From: an uncultured Ectothiorhodospiraceae bacterium
Lineage (GTDB): Bacteria; Pseudomonadota; Gammaproteobacteria; Nitrococcales; Nitrococcaceae
NCBI GenBank assembly: GCA_913061005.1
Contig: CAJXSH010000003.1
Span: forward strand, 62,001 to 126,000
Direction: 5' to 3'
Length of the DNA stretch: 64,000 bases
Shown here: piece by piece, positions 2 to 7,949 of the stretch
Layout: each line of letters begins with the position of its first letter
Numbering within the stretch: the first letter of the stretch is position 1
Notes under the pieces: model-generated
Database searches by the model: none
Seen by the model: only the letters and a program-made list of their open reading frames with translations
What the model was told of the DNA's origin: nothing
Translations under genes and position numbers: made by a program

Positions 2-1177
2 ATCTTCATTGCGCTGGCCATCACCGGCAACCCGATCCCGCAGCTCGGGCTGTTCGGCTCGGTGGGTGAAGGCACCTATCTGCTGGAGCGCCTCGACAAC
101 ATCCTGGTTGATCTTGGCTTCTCGCAGTACACGGTGATGAAGGGCACGACGCTGAACATGTTCTTCTTGACCATGTCGCTGATGATCGGCACCGCCGGTC
201 TGCCCCACGTCATCATCCGCTTCTTCACTGTGCCGCGGGTGCGGGATGCGCGGTTGTCCGCCGGCTGGACGCTGGTGTTCATCGCCATTCTCTACACCAC
301 GGCCCCGGCGGTGGGTGCCATGTCCTTCTACAACCTGATCAACACGGTGCAGCCGGGTGAGATCGGGGCCGAAGAAGGCAACCTGGCCTACGAGAATGTC
401 CCGGGCTGGTTCTCCCGCTGGGAGGAGACCGGGCTGCTCGGCTTTGATGACAAAAACGGTGACGGCCGTATCCAGTACTACAACGACGACAGTGAGGCAT
501 TTGCCGACACCGCCGCCGAGTACGGCTGGGAAGGCAACGAGCTGACCGTTGACCGCGACATCATGGTGATGGCCAACCCCGAGATCGCACAGCTCCCGGC
601 CTGGGTGATCGCGCTGACCGTGGCCGGTGGCCTGGCGGCAGCGTTGTCAACGGCAGCCGGGTTGTTGATGGCCATATCCTCGGCGGTCTCTCATGACCTG
701 ATCAAGGGCGTCATCAACCCGGGGATCAGCGAGAAAGGCGAACTGCTGGCGGCTCGAGTGGCCATGGCAGGTGCCGTACTGGTGGCCGGCTATCTGGGGC
801 TCAACCCACCCGGGTTTGCCGCGCAGGTGGTGGCACTGGCCTTCGGGCTGGCGGCCTCGTCGCTGTTCCCGGTGCTCATGCTTGGCATTTTCAACCGTCG
901 CATGAACAGCGCCGGTGCCATGGCCGGCATGCTCTCGGGTCTGGGCTTTACCATGATCTATGTGTTCGTCTACAAGGGGTGGTTCTTCATCCCCGGCACC
1001 AACATGCTGCCGGACACCCCCGAGCACTGGGTGATGGGCATCGGCCCGCAGTCCATCGGCGCTGTCGGCGCGATTATCAACGTGGTGGTCGCCACGCTGG
1101 TATCCCGGGCCACGGCACCGCCGCCGAAGGACATCCAGGAGCTCGTCGAGAGCATCCGTGTCCCGCGGGCAAGCTAA
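2..1177 (+). CDS. Sodium:solute symporter, 3' part (5' end outside the window)
   Basis: This is the C-terminal part of a sodium/solute symporter (SSS) family transporter in the inner membrane, which would import a small solute, probably a carboxylate such as acetate, with Na+. The frame is open to the left edge, so the start is missing. Several hydrophobic helices are visible, and the LPHVIIRFFTVP segment is typical of the acetate-permease-like VC_2705 branch. Between two helices lies a hydrophilic loop with an EF-hand-like stretch (DKNGDGRI, bases 449-472). The gene converges on a DUF294 gene across a shared terminator. In several Proteobacteria this symporter, a DUF294 protein and a PAS/exonuclease protein sit together, which is from memory. 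The substrate is not shown by the sequence. Family assignment is firm; the branch is likely. Confidence 0.85.
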   Translation: MFIALAITGNPIPQLGLFGSVGEGTYLLERLDNILVDLGFSQYTVMKGTTLNMFFLTMSLMIGTAGLPHVIIRFFTVPRVRDARLSAGWTLVFIAILYTTAPAVGAMSFYNLINTVQPGEIGAEEGNLAYENVPGWFSRWEETGLLGFDDKNGDGRIQYYNDDSEAFADTAAEYGWEGNELTVDRDIMVMANPEIAQLPAWVIALTVAGGLAAALSTAAGLLMAISSAVSHDLIKGVINPGISEKGELLAARVAMAGAVLVAGYLGLNPPGFAAQVVALAFGLAASSLFPVLMLGIFNRRMNSAGAMAGMLSGLGFTMIYVFVYKGWFFIPGTNMLPDTPEHWVMGIGPQSIGAVGAIINVVVATLVSRATAPPPKDIQELVESIRVPRAS

Positions 1178-1275: not shown

Positions 1276-3180
1276 CTAGAGCTGGAAGCGCACCTCGAGC
1301 TTTTTCTGCAACCGACGGGCTTCGCGCAATGCCTCTTTAAGGATGCGACGGTCCATGGGGTTGAGCTCGTCGGGATCGAGCCGATTGTTCATCGACTCAC
1401 CCGCGGCGGCCTGACGCTGGTGTTCGCGCATGCGCAGCAACTGGATGAATGCAAAAGAGCGCTGAAAGGCGCCTGCGTCCTCGGCGCTGAGCACGCCGGC
1501 CGAGACCAGCGCCCGATACCGCGCCGGCGTGTTGGACTCGGCAATCCCCGCCTGCAGGGCCAGCACCCGGGCGGCATCGACGAACGGTGTCAGTCCCCGG
1601 ACCTTCAGATCGATACGCTCGACGCCGTCGGTGTCTTTTTCGGTGGAGAAATCGCGGAACATGCCAAGCGGCGGACGGATGGCCAGGCAGTTTCCGGCAA
1701 GGGTGTGCAGGAAAACGCTGTTGCCGGCGGCCAGATCCGCCACGCGCTGATGCAGGGCATCACCCGCCGGCAGATCGCCCCAGATGGGGCGGAAGTCAAA
1801 ATAGATGGTGGAGTTGAGCAGATTCTCCGGGGTGGCGCTGCCCACCATCTCGCGAAAGGTCTGCTCCCACTCGGCAAAGCTCAGGCAAAGGCGTGGGTTG
1901 CTGGCCATCACATTGCCCGTGCACAGGGTAAAGCCACAGCGGTCGAGGACCTGGTTGATATGCCAGGCCAACGGCAGGATGCGTTGCCGCACCGTCTCGG
2001 TCGCCTCGTCACCGGGGTCGAAGAGAATGCCGTTGTCCTGGTCGGTGACGCGGGTCTGTTCGCTGCGCCCCTCGCTGCCAAAGGCAATCCAGGTAAAGGG
2101 CACCCCGGGGTCGCCCTGCTCTTCGATGCTCAGTTCGATGGCGCGGGTGACGGTCCGGTCATTGAGCAGAGTGATGATACGGGTGATCTGCTCGACCCCC
2201 GCGCCGTGGGCCATCATGGTATCGATCAGCGCCCCGACATCACTGCGCGCCCGGACCAGCGCCTCGACACTGCCGGCGGCGGTGATCGCCCGGGTCAGAT
2301 GAACCAGGTTGATCCGCTGCAGCGCGAAGATGTCCCGCTCCGAGACAATCCCGGCCAGCCGGCCGCGGTCATCGGTGACCACCATGTGCCGGATATGATG
2401 ACGGGCCATTTCCACCACCGCCTCGAAGGCATAGGTGTCGGCATCGAGACTGAGCGGGTCCGGCGTCATCACCGACGAGAGCGGGCTTTCGAGATCGACG
2501 CCATCGGCCACCACCGCGCGCAGATCATGCAGGGTGAATATGCCTTTGGCGCGACGGCCGGCATCGGTGACCAGGATGCTGCCGACCTCGTGCTCGTGCA
2601 TGGACCGCACGGCCTTGTGAATGGCTGTCTCGGGCGCACAGGTCAATGGATCGCTCTGCATCAGCCCCCGCAGCGGGGTCTCCAGCGACGAATCCCCACC
2701 CAGATTGCCGGCGGCGTGTTGCTGGATATCGCGCTGGACCTGATCCAGCAGACTGCTCACGCCGCGCATGCAGTAATCGCGAAACGCCGGGCTTTCGCCA
2801 AGCAGGTGCTCGAACGCGGGCCTGGGCAGCCGCAGGCAACGCACATCGGTGGCCGCGCGGTAGAACGTGCGGGTGGCCCGCTGGCCGATCATCGCGGCCA
2901 TCGGGAAGTTGTCGCCGGCTTCGAGTTCGAAACGCTCCACCCCCTCCTCGCCCACACCCGGCCGTTCGGCGGCCACGCCACCGCTGACAATCAGATAGAA
3001 ATGGCGCACACGCCCGGATCCGGGCTCGAGGATGACATCGCCGGCGGCATAGTCCATGAGCTGGACATGTTCAAGGAAATAGTCCCGCAGCGACCGCGGA
3101 AAACGGTCGAAGGGGGCATGGTCGTTGAGAAACGCATGAGCAACAGTATGTGCTTCCGCCACCACCTCGGTGCCGGTCAT
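1276..3180 (-). CDS. DUF294 nucleotidyltransferase-like protein with cyclic-nucleotide and CBS domains
   Basis: Predicted cytoplasmic signalling protein of about 634 aa. In order it shows a cyclic-nucleotide-binding-like domain (about 25-135), a pair of CBS domains (about 170-290), and a DUF294 domain related to the nucleotidyltransferase fold of GlnD, with the signature GSEGRSEQ and DQDN near 368-383, followed by a DUF294 C-terminal helical domain. CBS pairs usually sense adenylates; the target of the transferase is unknown. The chosen ATG at 3180 has GGGAGG five bases upstream. A TTG at 3216 also has a GAGGT-type site and would add 12 residues. The gene faces the symporter and is divergent from the receiver and exonuclease genes, so it probably belongs to the same regulatory unit. 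Family call firm, function unknown. Confidence 0.85.
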   Translation of the reverse strand: MTGTEVVAEAHTVAHAFLNDHAPFDRFPRSLRDYFLEHVQLMDYAAGDVILEPGSGRVRHFYLIVSGGVAAERPGVGEEGVERFELEAGDNFPMAAMIGQRATRTFYRAATDVRCLRLPRPAFEHLLGESPAFRDYCMRGVSSLLDQVQRDIQQHAAGNLGGDSSLETPLRGLMQSDPLTCAPETAIHKAVRSMHEHEVGSILVTDAGRRAKGIFTLHDLRAVVADGVDLESPLSSVMTPDPLSLDADTYAFEAVVEMARHHIRHMVVTDDRGRLAGIVSERDIFALQRINLVHLTRAITAAGSVEALVRARSDVGALIDTMMAHGAGVEQITRIITLLNDRTVTRAIELSIEEQGDPGVPFTWIAFGSEGRSEQTRVTDQDNGILFDPGDEATETVRQRILPLAWHINQVLDRCGFTLCTGNVMASNPRLCLSFAEWEQTFREMVGSATPENLLNSTIYFDFRPIWGDLPAGDALHQRVADLAAGNSVFLHTLAGNCLAIRPPLGMFRDFSTEKDTDGVERIDLKVRGLTPFVDAARVLALQAGIAESNTPARYRALVSAGVLSAEDAGAFQRSFAFIQLLRMREHQRQAAAGESMNNRLDPDELNPMDRRILKEALREARRLQKKLEVRFQL

Positions 3181-3225
3181 AAGGGCCTCCCGGGGCCGAA
3201 TCCCGAAAAAGGTCAATAGATTACC

Positions 3226-3256
3226 TCGACAAACCCCGACAGGAATAGCCTATACT
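3226..3256 (+). promoter_or_regulatory. Possible promoter for the receiver/exonuclease pair
   Basis: A good -10 (TATACT, 3251-3256) follows a -35-like TCGACA (3226-3231) with a long 19-bp spacer, in the short gap between divergent genes. The strong Shine-Dalgarno sequence AGGAGGAGG begins 11 bases after the -10. Suggestive only. Confidence 0.35.
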
Positions 3257-3285
3257 GAGGGTAAACAGGAGGAGGCGGCGCAGGA

Positions 3286-3675
3286 TTGCGCCGGACGGCT
3301 ATGTATAAAAATATTCTCATCGCCGATAGCGAACCCAACCTGACCACCGCGCTGGCGTTCTTTCTCGGGCATGCCGGATTCCGCGTCGATTGTGCGGCCA
3401 GCTACGAGCAGGCCATCGAAACGGCCCGAACCCACCGGCCGGATATCGCCCTGATTGATACCCTGATCGGCGGGCGAAGCGGATACGACCTCTGTCAGGC
3501 GTTGCTCAACCTGCCGGGCATGGCCCAGCTCCCCGTCCTCATGCTCACCACCCATGGGCTTGAGGTCGAGCGCGAAAAGGCCCTGTCGCTTGGCGCCATC
3601 GACTTTCTGGTCAAGCCGTTCAACCCGGGCGATGTGCTGGCCCGGGTCCAGGAGCTGCTGCAAGAGGCCGCCTGA
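3286..3675 (+). CDS. Single-domain response regulator (receiver only)
   Basis: A CheY-like receiver of 125-129 aa with no output domain. The acidic pocket (ADSE near the N-terminus), the phospho-acceptor Asp in the ALIDTL segment, the conserved Thr in MLTTHG and Lys in LVKPF are all present, so phosphorylation looks possible. The TTG at 3286 is ten bases downstream of AGGAGGAGG, whereas the ATG at 3301 has no ribosome site at normal distance; I therefore use TTG, though ATG would give the more usual N-terminus MYKNILIAD. The next gene starts two bases after the stop, so the two are co-translated. That partner looks like a histidine kinase that has lost its phospho-histidine, so the phosphodonor is unclear. 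Confidence 0.85.
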   Translation: MRRTAMYKNILIADSEPNLTTALAFFLGHAGFRVDCAASYEQAIETARTHRPDIALIDTLIGGRSGYDLCQALLNLPGMAQLPVLMLTTHGLEVEREKALSLGAIDFLVKPFNPGDVLARVQELLQEAA

Positions 3676-3677
3676 GG

Positions 3678-5771
3678 GTGCGGGCGCTCCGGCTCCCGCG
3701 GCTGCGCAAGCGGCTCTGGTTGGTCGCCGGCGCGGCGGGCCTGGCCCAGGTCGCCGCGATCGTCACCCTGCCCCTCTGGGCGACAACGACACCGTCGTTC
3801 TCTCCGGCGCTGCTTGCGCTCGCCGCGGTCAACCTGCTGGTCACAGTGGCACTGGCCTGGGCGATCGATCAGCGCCTCGCCAAACCACTGGTCGCCACCG
3901 AAAAAGGCGCCGGTATCCTTGCCGGCTCCAATCCGGGCCATCGCCTCGAGATCCGTCCCGGCCACTGGCTGGGCAAGCTGCCAGAGACCCTGGAGAAGCT
4001 GGCAGCGGCACTGGCGCGCAGCCGCAACGAGATGGATGAAGCCGCCAGCGCCTGGGCCGCGCGGGTCGAAGCGCGCAAGGCCCGGCTCGAGACCATCCTG
4101 CGCGAAATCCGAGAAGGGGTCATCGTCTGTGCCCCGGACGGTCGCATACGGCTTTACAACCGTTCGGCTCGAGAGCTTCTGGCCAACGAGCCGGCGCTGG
4201 GGCTGGGCCGCAATATCAACGAGGTCCTGAGTGAGGGACCGGTCCGTCATACGTTGAGGCTGCTGGGCGACGAAGCCACCGGCGAGGACCCGCAAGGCGA
4301 TGCCGATCTTGTCTGCACCAGTGCCAGCGGCGACCGGCTGCTGCGCTGCCGGCTGGCAAAGCTTGACCTCGCCGACCCGGATACCGACGGCTTCGTGATG
4401 ACGCTCCAGGATATCTCTCGCGAAACCCAGGAAGGGCTCAAGCGCGAGAAACGGCTGCGTGAGGCGGTCGAGCGACTGCGTAATCCGCTGACCGCACTGG
4501 GCAGTGCCAGCGAGAGCCTGCAACTGGCTCAGCGCGCCGAGCTCCATGACGACGCACAGCGCTTCGGCCAGATCATGGCCCAGGAAAGCCAGCGCCTGAC
4601 CAAGGATTTTCTGGCCTTAACCCGTGAGACCACCGCCATGGTCACCGAGACCTGGCGGATGGAAGACACCCACCTTGGCAGCCTCATCGACAGTCTGCGG
4701 CAAAGCGCGCCGGAGACACTCCCGCGCATCCAGTGCCGGGCCAACGTCTGGGTATCCGCCGAGCCCTATCTGCTCAGCCTGGTCATCGAGGCACTGCTGC
4801 GACAGCTTCGTAGCGAGCTCAATGTCTCTGCCCTGGCGCTATCGGGACGGGCCGAGGGCAGTCTCATCTACATGGATCTGAACTGGTCGGGGGATGTGGT
4901 GGCGCCGGATCAGCTCGACCGATGGCTGGATACGGGGCTGGCCGAGGTCGGTGGCACGGTCACCCTTCGCGAGGTCCTGCAGCGTCACGACACCACCGCC
5001 TGGAGTCAGCCGGATCTCTCGCGCACCGGCCGGGCCCTGCTTCGCCTGCCGCTGCCCGGTGCGCCCGAGAAGACCGAAAGCCCGGCATCGGTCATCCCGG
5101 CCCGGCCGGAGTATTACGAATTCGCCCTCGAGGAAGAATCACGACCGCTGGGGGATACCCGGGACGCGCCGCTCCAGCAGCTCGACTACGTTGTCTTCGA
5201 CTGCGAAACCACCGGACTGGAGCCAAGCCAGGGGGACGAGATTGTCTCGATTGGCGCGGTGCGCATTCACCACGGACGGGTCATGCATGGCGAGACCTTT
5301 GAGTTGCATGCCAACCCCGCCCGGCCGATCCCGGCCCTGGCGAGCAGCATTCATGGCATCACCGACGAGGATGTGGCCGACGCCCCCCCGGTGGAAGAAG
5401 TGGTCAGGCGCTTTCACGCCTTCGCCGGCGACGCCATCCTGGTCGGGTTCAACATCGCCTTTGACATGCGCTTTTTGCAGCTCAAACAGCGCCGCTGCGG
5501 GGTTCGCTTTGACCATCCCACCCTGGATGCACTGCTGCTCTCGATCCTGCTCCATGACCATACCGGTGAGCACACCATGGAGGGCATTGCCGAGCGCCTC
5601 GGGGTGGGCATTGGCGGCCGCCACACCGCGCTTGGCGACTCGCTGACCACCGCCGAGATCTTCATCCGCCTGCTCGATCTGCTGCCGGATGAATCCATCC
5701 ACACGCTCGGCGACGCGGTGGCCGCCCAGGAGAGAATGGTCGAGTTCCGCCGCCAGCAACGGGCCTTTTAA
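3678..5771 (+). CDS. Membrane PAS / degenerate histidine kinase / DnaQ-type 3'-5' exonuclease fusion
   Basis: A 697-aa fusion. Two membrane helices (about 12-36 and 41-63) are followed by a linker helix, a PAS domain (about 135-245), a HisKA-like helical pair (about 255-315) and an HATPase-like region (about 330-460). The H-box reads ERLRNPL at 265-271, so Glu265 stands where the phospho-histidine should be, and no intact DxGxG ATP-binding box is seen. The C-terminal third (about 503-670) is a DnaQ-family exonuclease with FDCETTGL (Asp508, Glu510), a second Asp at 596 and H649xxxxD654, so that domain looks active. It starts with GTG two bases after the receiver gene. The likely role is sensory control near the membrane, with nucleic acid or a nucleotide as substrate. 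Domain calls are firm; biological role unknown. Confidence 0.85.
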   Translation: MRALRLPRLRKRLWLVAGAAGLAQVAAIVTLPLWATTTPSFSPALLALAAVNLLVTVALAWAIDQRLAKPLVATEKGAGILAGSNPGHRLEIRPGHWLGKLPETLEKLAAALARSRNEMDEAASAWAARVEARKARLETILREIREGVIVCAPDGRIRLYNRSARELLANEPALGLGRNINEVLSEGPVRHTLRLLGDEATGEDPQGDADLVCTSASGDRLLRCRLAKLDLADPDTDGFVMTLQDISRETQEGLKREKRLREAVERLRNPLTALGSASESLQLAQRAELHDDAQRFGQIMAQESQRLTKDFLALTRETTAMVTETWRMEDTHLGSLIDSLRQSAPETLPRIQCRANVWVSAEPYLLSLVIEALLRQLRSELNVSALALSGRAEGSLIYMDLNWSGDVVAPDQLDRWLDTGLAEVGGTVTLREVLQRHDTTAWSQPDLSRTGRALLRLPLPGAPEKTESPASVIPARPEYYEFALEEESRPLGDTRDAPLQQLDYVVFDCETTGLEPSQGDEIVSIGAVRIHHGRVMHGETFELHANPARPIPALASSIHGITDEDVADAPPVEEVVRRFHAFAGDAILVGFNIAFDMRFLQLKQRRCGVRFDHPTLDALLLSILLHDHTGEHTMEGIAERLGVGIGGRHTALGDSLTTAEIFIRLLDLLPDESIHTLGDAVAAQERMVEFRRQQRAF

Positions 5772-5801
5772 AAACAAAAACCCCGCCTCGGGGGCGGGGT
5801 T
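5771..5801 (-). terminator. Intrinsic terminator of the pnp end of the long leftward array
   Basis: Stem AACCCCGCC / GGCGGGGTT (5779-5787 with 5793-5801). Read leftward it is followed by TTTTTGTTTT; read rightward there is no T run. It therefore mainly ends transcription coming from pnp. Confidence 0.8.
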
Positions 5802-5846
5802 CACGATGCGGGCACACCACCCGGCAGGCGGCGGCGCCGCGTCGGA

Positions 5847-7949
5847 CTAGGCCTCTTCTTCGGCGAGTGCCTTGATGCTGAGCCGAATCCGGCCCTGGCG
5901 GTCGACCTCGAGCACCTTGACCCGAACGGTCTGTCCCTCGCTGAGCTCGTCCGAGACATTCTCGACCCGCTCGTTGGAGATCTGCGAGATGTGCACCAGC
6001 CCGTCCCGACCCGGGAGGATGTTCACGAACGCGCCAAAGTCCATGAGCTTGATCACCTTGCCCTCATAGACCTGGCCGACCTCGACATCGGCGGTGAGCA
6101 GCTCGATACGGCGACGGGCCTCTTCACCGGCGGCTTTGTCCACCGAACCGATGGTGACAATGCCATCATCGGAGATATCGATGGTGGTGCCGGTCTCTTC
6201 GGTGAGCTGGCGGATGGTCGCCCCGCCCTTGCCGATCACATCCCGGATTTTCTCCGGATCGATCTTCAGGGTGATCAAGCGCGGCGCATAGGCGGACATC
6301 TCGTCCCGGTGCTCGGGGATGACTTCGTTCATCTTGCCCAGGATGTGCAGCCGTCCTTCCTTGGCCTGCTCGAGCGCCTTTTCCATGATCTCGCGGGTGA
6401 TCCCGTTGATCTTGATGTCCATCTGCAAGGCGGTCACGCCGGCATCCGTCCCGGCGACCTTGAAGTCCATGTCACCGAGGTGGTCCTCGTCGCCGAGGAT
6501 GTCGGTGAGAACGGCAAATTCGTCACCATCCTTGATCAAGCCCATGGCGATGCCCGCCACCGGCGCCTTGATCGGGACGCCGGCATCCATCAGCGACAGG
6601 CTGGTGCCGCAGACCGATGCCATGGAGCTGGAGCCATTGGACTCGGTGATCTCGGAGACCACACGCACCACATAGGGGCAGTCTTCCGGCGAGGGCATGA
6701 CCGCCTGGATGCCGCGCTTGGCAAGCTTGCCGTGGCCGATTTCACGCCGCTTGGGCGTGCCCATGAAACCGGTCTCGCCCACGCAGTAGGGCGGGAAGTT
6801 GTAGTGGAGCATGAATGGCTCGCGCCGCTCGCCTTCGATGGCGTCGATGATCTGCGCATCCCGGCCGGTCCCCAGCGTGGTGACCACGATCGCCTGGGTC
6901 TCGCCGCGGGTGAAAATCGCCGAGCCATGGGTCCGTGGCAGCGTGCCCACCTCGATATCGATGGGCCGCACCGTGCGCTGATCACGGCCGTCGATGCGCG
7001 GATGACCGGCCAGGACCCGGCCCCGGACGATCTTTTTCTCGAGGCCCTTGAACGCCTCGCCCACCGCCTCGGCATCATAGCCCTGCGGGTTTTCGTCATC
7101 GGCCACCAGCTGGCTGTTGACCTGCTCGCGGGCCGCCGCGACCGCCTCTTGCCGGGCCTGCTTATCGGCAATCCCATAGGCCTCGGTCAGCGGCGCCTCG
7201 GCAAGTTCCCGGACCCGCTCGGCGAGTGTTTCGTCCGTTGGCGCCGGCTGCCAGTCCCAGCGGGGCTTGCCCGCCTCGGCGGCAAGCTCGTTGATGGCGT
7301 TGATCGCCGTCTGCATCTGCTCATGGCCGTGCAGCACCGCATCCAGCATGGTCTGCTCGGAGAGCCGGTTGGCCTCGGACTCGACCATCAGCACAGCGTC
7401 CGCCGTCCCCGCCACCACCAGGTCGAGCTCGGAGTCCTCAAGCTGACTGAAGGTGGGGTTGAGCAGAAAGCCGCCGTCCTTGTACCCGACCCGGGCCGCA
7501 CCAATCGGCCCGTCGAAGGGCACCCCCGAGACGGCCAACGCCGCCGAGGTACCGATCATGGCGGGGATGTCGGCGTCCACTTCGGGATTCATCGAGATCA
7601 CCGTGGCGATGACCTGCACCTCGTTGGAGAACCCTTCCGGAAACAGCGGCCGGATGGGCCGGTCAATCAGCCGCGAGACCAGGGTTTCTTTTTCGGAGGG
7701 ACGGCCCTCGCGTTTGAAAAAGCCCCCCGGGATCTTGCCGGCGGCGTAGGTGCGCTCCTGGTAGTTGACCGTCAGCGGAAGGAAGCTGCGCCCGGGCACC
7801 TCCTCGCGCTTGCCCACCACGGTGACAAGCACCACGGTGTCGGACATGTTGACCATCACGGCGCCGGTGGCCTGTCGGGCCAGCTTGCCGGTCTCGAGTG
7901 TGACGGTGTGTTCACCGAACTGGAACGATTTCTTCACGGCTGGAGTCAC
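5847..7949 (-). CDS. pnp: Polyribonucleotide nucleotidyltransferase (PNPase)
   Basis: PNPase is a phosphorolytic 3'-5' exoribonuclease that degrades mRNA in the cytoplasm, often in the RNA degradosome. The 700-aa product has the usual layout: two RNase PH domains with a helical linker, then a KH domain (about 555-615, with [11 protein letters not shown]) and an S1 domain (about 625-695, with [11 protein letters not shown]-like [15 protein letters not shown]). Length matches E. coli PNPase. The GTG start at 7949 has AAGGGTG eight bases upstream; a second GTG at 7937 is possible. It lies 32 bases after rpsO and ends the rimP-nusA-infB cluster. The short gap leaves no room for the large processed hairpin that controls pnp in E. 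coli. Confidence 0.97.

Follow-up and report, generated by a model that had tools for sequence, protein, structure and literature searches.

The window analysed here, 64,000 nucleotides of contig CAJXSH010000003.1 from an uncultured Ectothiorhodospiraceae bacterium, carries a genuine, uninterrupted reading frame at 3678-5771. The pseudo-histidine-kinase/exonuclease fusion that the first-pass annotation had noticed there is confirmed, and its architecture, a membrane-anchored pseudo-histidine-kinase joined to a DEDDh exonuclease, is near certain (Table 1). The loop between the two N-terminal hydrophobic helices is short and would not accommodate a large periplasmic domain. The linker that connects the kinase-like core to the exonuclease contains R476 and E478, which are invariant in both structure alignments (A2 with 72 rows and A3 with 57, the window being in each) though this segment is modelled poorly. 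Loci L052, L078, L091, L099, L102, L104, L106 and L108 are omitted from A2 and A3, and A3 omits 15 further ones. Between the stop codon of a receiver gene and the start of the fusion lie 2 nt. Further upstream are a divergent DUF294 gene, a symporter gene, DUF4212, acs, a sigma-54 regulator and a kinase. The N-terminal part of the latter aligns with transporter-kinases and it has HisKA and HATPase_c; the Pfam SSF model is not listed for it. A promoter scan of 3150-6000 found none, which is uninformative either way.

Table 1. Features of the fusion gene and its upstream neighbours (window coordinates).
Feature	Position	Strand	Evidence and remarks
3' part of VC_2705-type SSF symporter gene	62..1177	+	TIGR03648; gene begins upstream of window
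cNMP-CBS-DUF294 nucleotidyltransferase	1276..3216	-	PF03445, PF10335, PF00571, PF00027; frequent family neighbour
Receiver-only response regulator	3286..3675	+	Asp58 kept, Ser15 at second acidic position
Pseudo-histidine-kinase / DEDDh exonuclease fusion	3678..5771	+	697 aa; ORF, Pfam, family alignments
Two N-terminal hydrophobic helices, about residues 8-34 and 39-64	3699..3869	+	Model secondary structure; hydropathy peaks 1.67 and 2.14
PAS domain, residues 135-249	4080..4424	+	PF08448, PF00989; PAS above cut-off
DHp (HisKA-like) helical hairpin, residues 252-323	4431..4646	+	Glu265 (codon 4470-4472) at phospho-His position
Degenerate HATPase_c-like domain, residues 326-462	4653..5063	+	Trp403 (codon 4884-4886) in place of G1 Asp
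Linker motif PARPEYYEF, residues 474-482	5097..5123	+	Alignments; low pLDDT
DEDDh exonuclease domain, residues 503-662	5184..5663	+	PF00929, catalytic alignment columns

The exonuclease domain matches PF00929 with an E value of 1.6e-32 (113.7 bits versus a cut-off of 24), and its best relative of solved structure is 2p1j (E 3.5e-27). The alignment bears out the earlier claim that all catalytic residues are kept, since D508, E510, D596, H649 and D654 are retained in every row with letters at these columns. The sequence thus supports a DEDDh domain (D-E-D-D-h) that looks catalytically intact. In L066 and L082, motif I reads FDCEMTGL.

The kinase core presents the opposite picture. When the window fusion was aligned with its 79 relatives, no His stood at column 265 in any of the 79 rows that have a letter there, nor was one found beside this position, in agreement with the proposal that Glu265 replaces the phospho-histidine. 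The column of the G1 Asp is Trp in 80/80 rows, so that the DxGxG box is absent as the first-pass annotation had said, and Asn occupies the aligned N-box column in 2/80. For the window fusion, Pfam gave a HisKA match below the cut-off and listed no HATPase_c, and the HATPase-like region was therefore tested separately. Profile search and comparison of the fold of a predicted model revealed a DHp hairpin and a Bergerat-type ATP-binding fold. The HATPase outline perceived earlier was thereby recovered by alignment, profile search and model. When 72 family members were searched as single sequences, HisKA matched in 44, and HATPase_c was not among the 25 families listed out of 32; this ATPase-like part is detectable only by profile and fold comparison. 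W403, G405, H437, W442 and P458 are fixed in 80/80 aligned rows, R268 is kept in 79/79 and R456 in 79/80. Such newly fixed residues suggest that the kinase-like domain is maintained for another role, and the invariance of W403, H437, W442 and P458, together with conservation across classes, argues that the core is under selection. The 79 named loci were searched for a relative with an intact kinase and none was found. In a tree of 39 kinase cores, 20 pseudokinases (19 of the 79 relatives and the window) separated from 19 active kinases; the tree named no sister from which the core could have originated, and the pseudokinase did not group with the transporter-kinases described below.

The relatives were found by two kinase-core peptide patterns, so members that do not carry these patterns would have been missed. 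The set comprises the best 80 of 122 confirmed matches, which correspond to 79 distinct loci, one of them (L106) truncated by its contig end. Named loci belong to Ectothiorhodospiraceae (Spiribacter, Halorhodospira, Ectothiorhodospira and Alkalilimnicola) and, beyond these, to Competibacteraceae, Rhodospirillales and other alphaproteobacteria. A whole-protein search of 59 genomes, including the window's own, gave a match in all, many being only other exonucleases or kinases. With a profile of the core, 18/369 genomes of the class matched at E 1e-10, and 56/398 in the phylum, the window's own included, some of them only through other kinases. The family is thus wider than the first-pass annotation saw, and it has transporter-kinase and DUF294 neighbours. 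One member, L052 (7458-8660), is a protein of 400 aa that stops after the kinase-like core and has no exonuclease; acs and a receiver are located upstream of it and a transporter-kinase downstream. Some genomes carry two family members (L042/L082 and L043/L066). At G008:C1:1035656-1037724 the match to the fusion is split into two pieces (1-422 and 403-697) that overlap and lie in different frames, a frameshift either natural or derived from sequencing; L027 carries the 3' part of this G008 fusion. No plasmid-borne copy of the fusion was matched by tblastn in 72,556 records. Our literature search, judged by title and abstract start and covering subscription literature in part, found no paper describing the fusion.

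The strongest lead on the function of the fusion is the conserved receiver gene directly upstream, on which the first-pass annotation is silent. Among the 79 loci, 74 extend 900 nt or more upstream of the codon of residue 80, and a receiver is found upstream in 62 of these. The other 12 have the fusion and no upstream receiver, with DUF294 close upstream in seven. All 63 receivers (these 62 and that of the window) stop 16-23 residues past the conserved Lys, and a C-terminal output domain is therefore absent from all of them. The (D/E)DDTK site is intact in 38/38 receivers whose locus has a kinase next to the fusion versus 17/25 otherwise (Fisher p 2.8e-4; these statistics ignore shared ancestry, and six of the eight degenerate receivers are from the window's genus). 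In this genus the receiver gene is present in 12/12 loci examined in its 14 genomes (G007 and G008 fall outside this set). The second acidic residue is missing in 11 of these 12 and Asn replaces the phospho-Asp in four. The partner kinase gave no match of at least 60% identity in any of the 14 genomes, 12 of which hold a full-length fusion; the genome that carries the window is 85% complete. The sister G017 has an intact receiver and a transporter-kinase beside the fusion, and G016, from the same family, has an altered receiver. This pattern of decay ties the kinase to the receiver. It also suggests a phosphate-free role for the receiver retained in the window's genus, the counts being non-independent as they come from related species.

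The kinase in question is an SLC5-type transporter-kinase, encoded by the next plus-strand gene in 42 of the 72 loci whose downstream flank is 1500 nt or longer. At least two loci, L054 and L058, count as having no kinase next because their contig ends within that gene. By text pattern, all 42 neighbours have the N, G1 and G2 boxes and the H-box. Pfam, run on three of them, gave HisKA and HATPase_c above the cut-off in 3/3 and SSF in 2/3. The weaker matches of the core profile in the 398 genomes (36 rows, E 1e-15 to 1e-11) mostly point to the same proteins, as 27 of them are in ORFs of 896-1029 aa, the size of the transporter-kinases, and two ORFs that were checked are transporter-kinases adjoining the fusion. 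Seven others are kinases of a different kind, of 479-540 aa.

The second recurring neighbour is the DUF294 nucleotidyltransferase. For the 45 loci flanked by over 4.5 kb on each side, tblastn within 6 kb found a DUF294 match in 31 and a match to the transporter-kinase of the window genome in 32; L071 is the sole locus with neither. According to the consulted part of PMC5715377, the CrbS/R regulon of P. fluorescens includes a cNMP-CBS-nucleotidyltransferase protein whose deletion had a negligible effect on growth on acetate, and DUF294 nucleotidyltransferases are described there as needing characterisation. A separate exonuclease adjoins DUF294 in 15 of 20 sampled regions of the class, accompanied by an SSF symporter in 13 of these 15 and by an acs-like gene (at least 48% identity) in six. 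No kinase-core match was found near the stand-alone exonucleases in the sampled regions. In this set (L163-L181), 14 of the 15 have Glu for the motif II Asp, and L178 has Asp, as judged by eye. A common origin with the fused exonucleases was considered and rejected: in a tree that included 26 of the 79 relatives and the window, and that carries long-branch warnings, 14/15 stand-alone exonucleases fell in another clade. L178 is elsewhere in the tree, on a long branch, and four further DUF294-adjacent exonucleases (L185-L188) form a separate clade of their own. Such recurrent adjacency suggests that the nucleotidyltransferase and the exonuclease are functionally linked, and DUF294 proteins gain a recurring gene partner. 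The window genome has a second DUF294 gene, L162 (contig C8, 5981-7834), around which no exonuclease, SSF or acs match was found within 14 kb.

The explanation that best accounts for these observations as a whole, and to which we give about an even chance, is that the pseudokinase reads the receiver, with the fused DEDDh exonuclease as output. Ancestrally, the transporter-kinase of the operon would phosphorylate the receiver, which would dock on the DHp hairpin of the pseudokinase, like DivK on DivL. Such docking and the PAS domain would jointly alter the dimer and switch the exonuclease on or off. We infer docking, gating and substrate; for the receiver-pseudokinase partnership, adjacency and decay provide support. 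In the window's genus, the missing match for the partner kinase and the eroding receiver site suggest that the receiver is probably bound as a fixed subunit independent of phosphate, the signal probably coming from the PAS domain. Given DUF294 as a neighbour, the substrate may be a nucleotide or an RNA which that nucleotidyltransferase produces or modifies; reversal of such a modification by the exonuclease is speculation. A more complete scheme, which we regard as unlikely, would be a two-component system whose exonuclease output undoes the work of DUF294, nucleotidyl transfer and removal controlling acetate metabolism, with kinase and receiver both shedding their phosphate chemistry in Spiribacter-like bacteria, so that a phosphate-free relay is left.

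The pseudokinase could instead be a mere dimerising connector between PAS and exonuclease, with the receiver acting elsewhere. PAS matches above the cut-off, the 12/74 loci without upstream receiver and the erosion of the receiver site in the window's genus would fit such a PAS-gated dimer. However, the receiver is kept in 62/74 family loci and in 12/12 of the genus loci examined, even though 11 of the latter lost part of its active site, and a bare connector would have no need for W403, H437, W442 and P458, invariant in 80/80. We consider this possible, though clearly on the doubtful side. RetS is a two-component pseudo-kinase that acts on other signalling proteins. Likewise, the pseudokinase could modulate the active transporter-kinase in a heterodimer and bring the exonuclease to the complex, as the adjoining kinase (42/72 loci) and the 27/36 weaker profile matches in ORFs of transporter-kinase size might indicate. 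This appears quite improbable, because in the window's genus no match for the partner kinase (at least 60% identity) was found in 14 genomes, 12 with a full-length fusion, and the invariant exonuclease residues would be left unexplained. Finally, the domain also fits general DEDDh, PolC and DnaQ models and the core has no kinase residues, as expected if this were an ordinary exonuclease of repair or proofreading that carries a decayed, functionless kinase remnant, but the new invariant core residues and conservation across classes point to selection on the core, and L052 retains the core without the exonuclease, which makes this very improbable.

Receiver reading by the pseudokinase remains our preferred explanation, and, judging from the sequence, the proposal that the kinase core is a signal relay or dimer module gating the exonuclease at the membrane is plausible. 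Given how widespread the family is, a dead kinase may serve cells as a nuclease switch. The family is conserved widely enough for testing, and the window's genus, with its partner kinase not found and a receiver gene that is kept while the receiver site decays, constitutes a natural experiment. The known two-component pseudo-kinases named here, RetS and DivL (the latter on the basis of part of PMC4211667), act on signalling proteins, whereas in the fusion the dead core is attached to an enzyme whose expected substrates are nucleic acid or nucleotides.

The closest parallel for the core is DivL of Caulobacter, where the His is replaced and the kinase fold kept as in the fusion family. In the part of PMC4211667 consulted, DivL is described as a pseudokinase whose kinase core senses DivK~P; the N, G1, F and G2 boxes, lost in the fusion family, are still present in it, and the domain layout described there shows no fused enzyme, whereas the fusion family carries the exonuclease. 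SLC5-transporter histidine kinases such as CbrA and CrbS are represented by the neighbour gene in 42/72 loci, and their ORF size is the commonest among the weaker profile matches of the core; in contrast to the fusion, their kinase boxes are intact and they include a transporter part. With DEDDh exonucleases of the PolC type and DnaQ, the fusion has all five catalytic residues in common. The solved exonuclease matches are named as polymerase subunits, Cas2-DEDDh, DinG, exonuclease 10 and similar proteins, none with a kinase core in its name. The stand-alone DUF294-linked exonucleases gave no match to the core; they share with the fusion its adjacency to DUF294.
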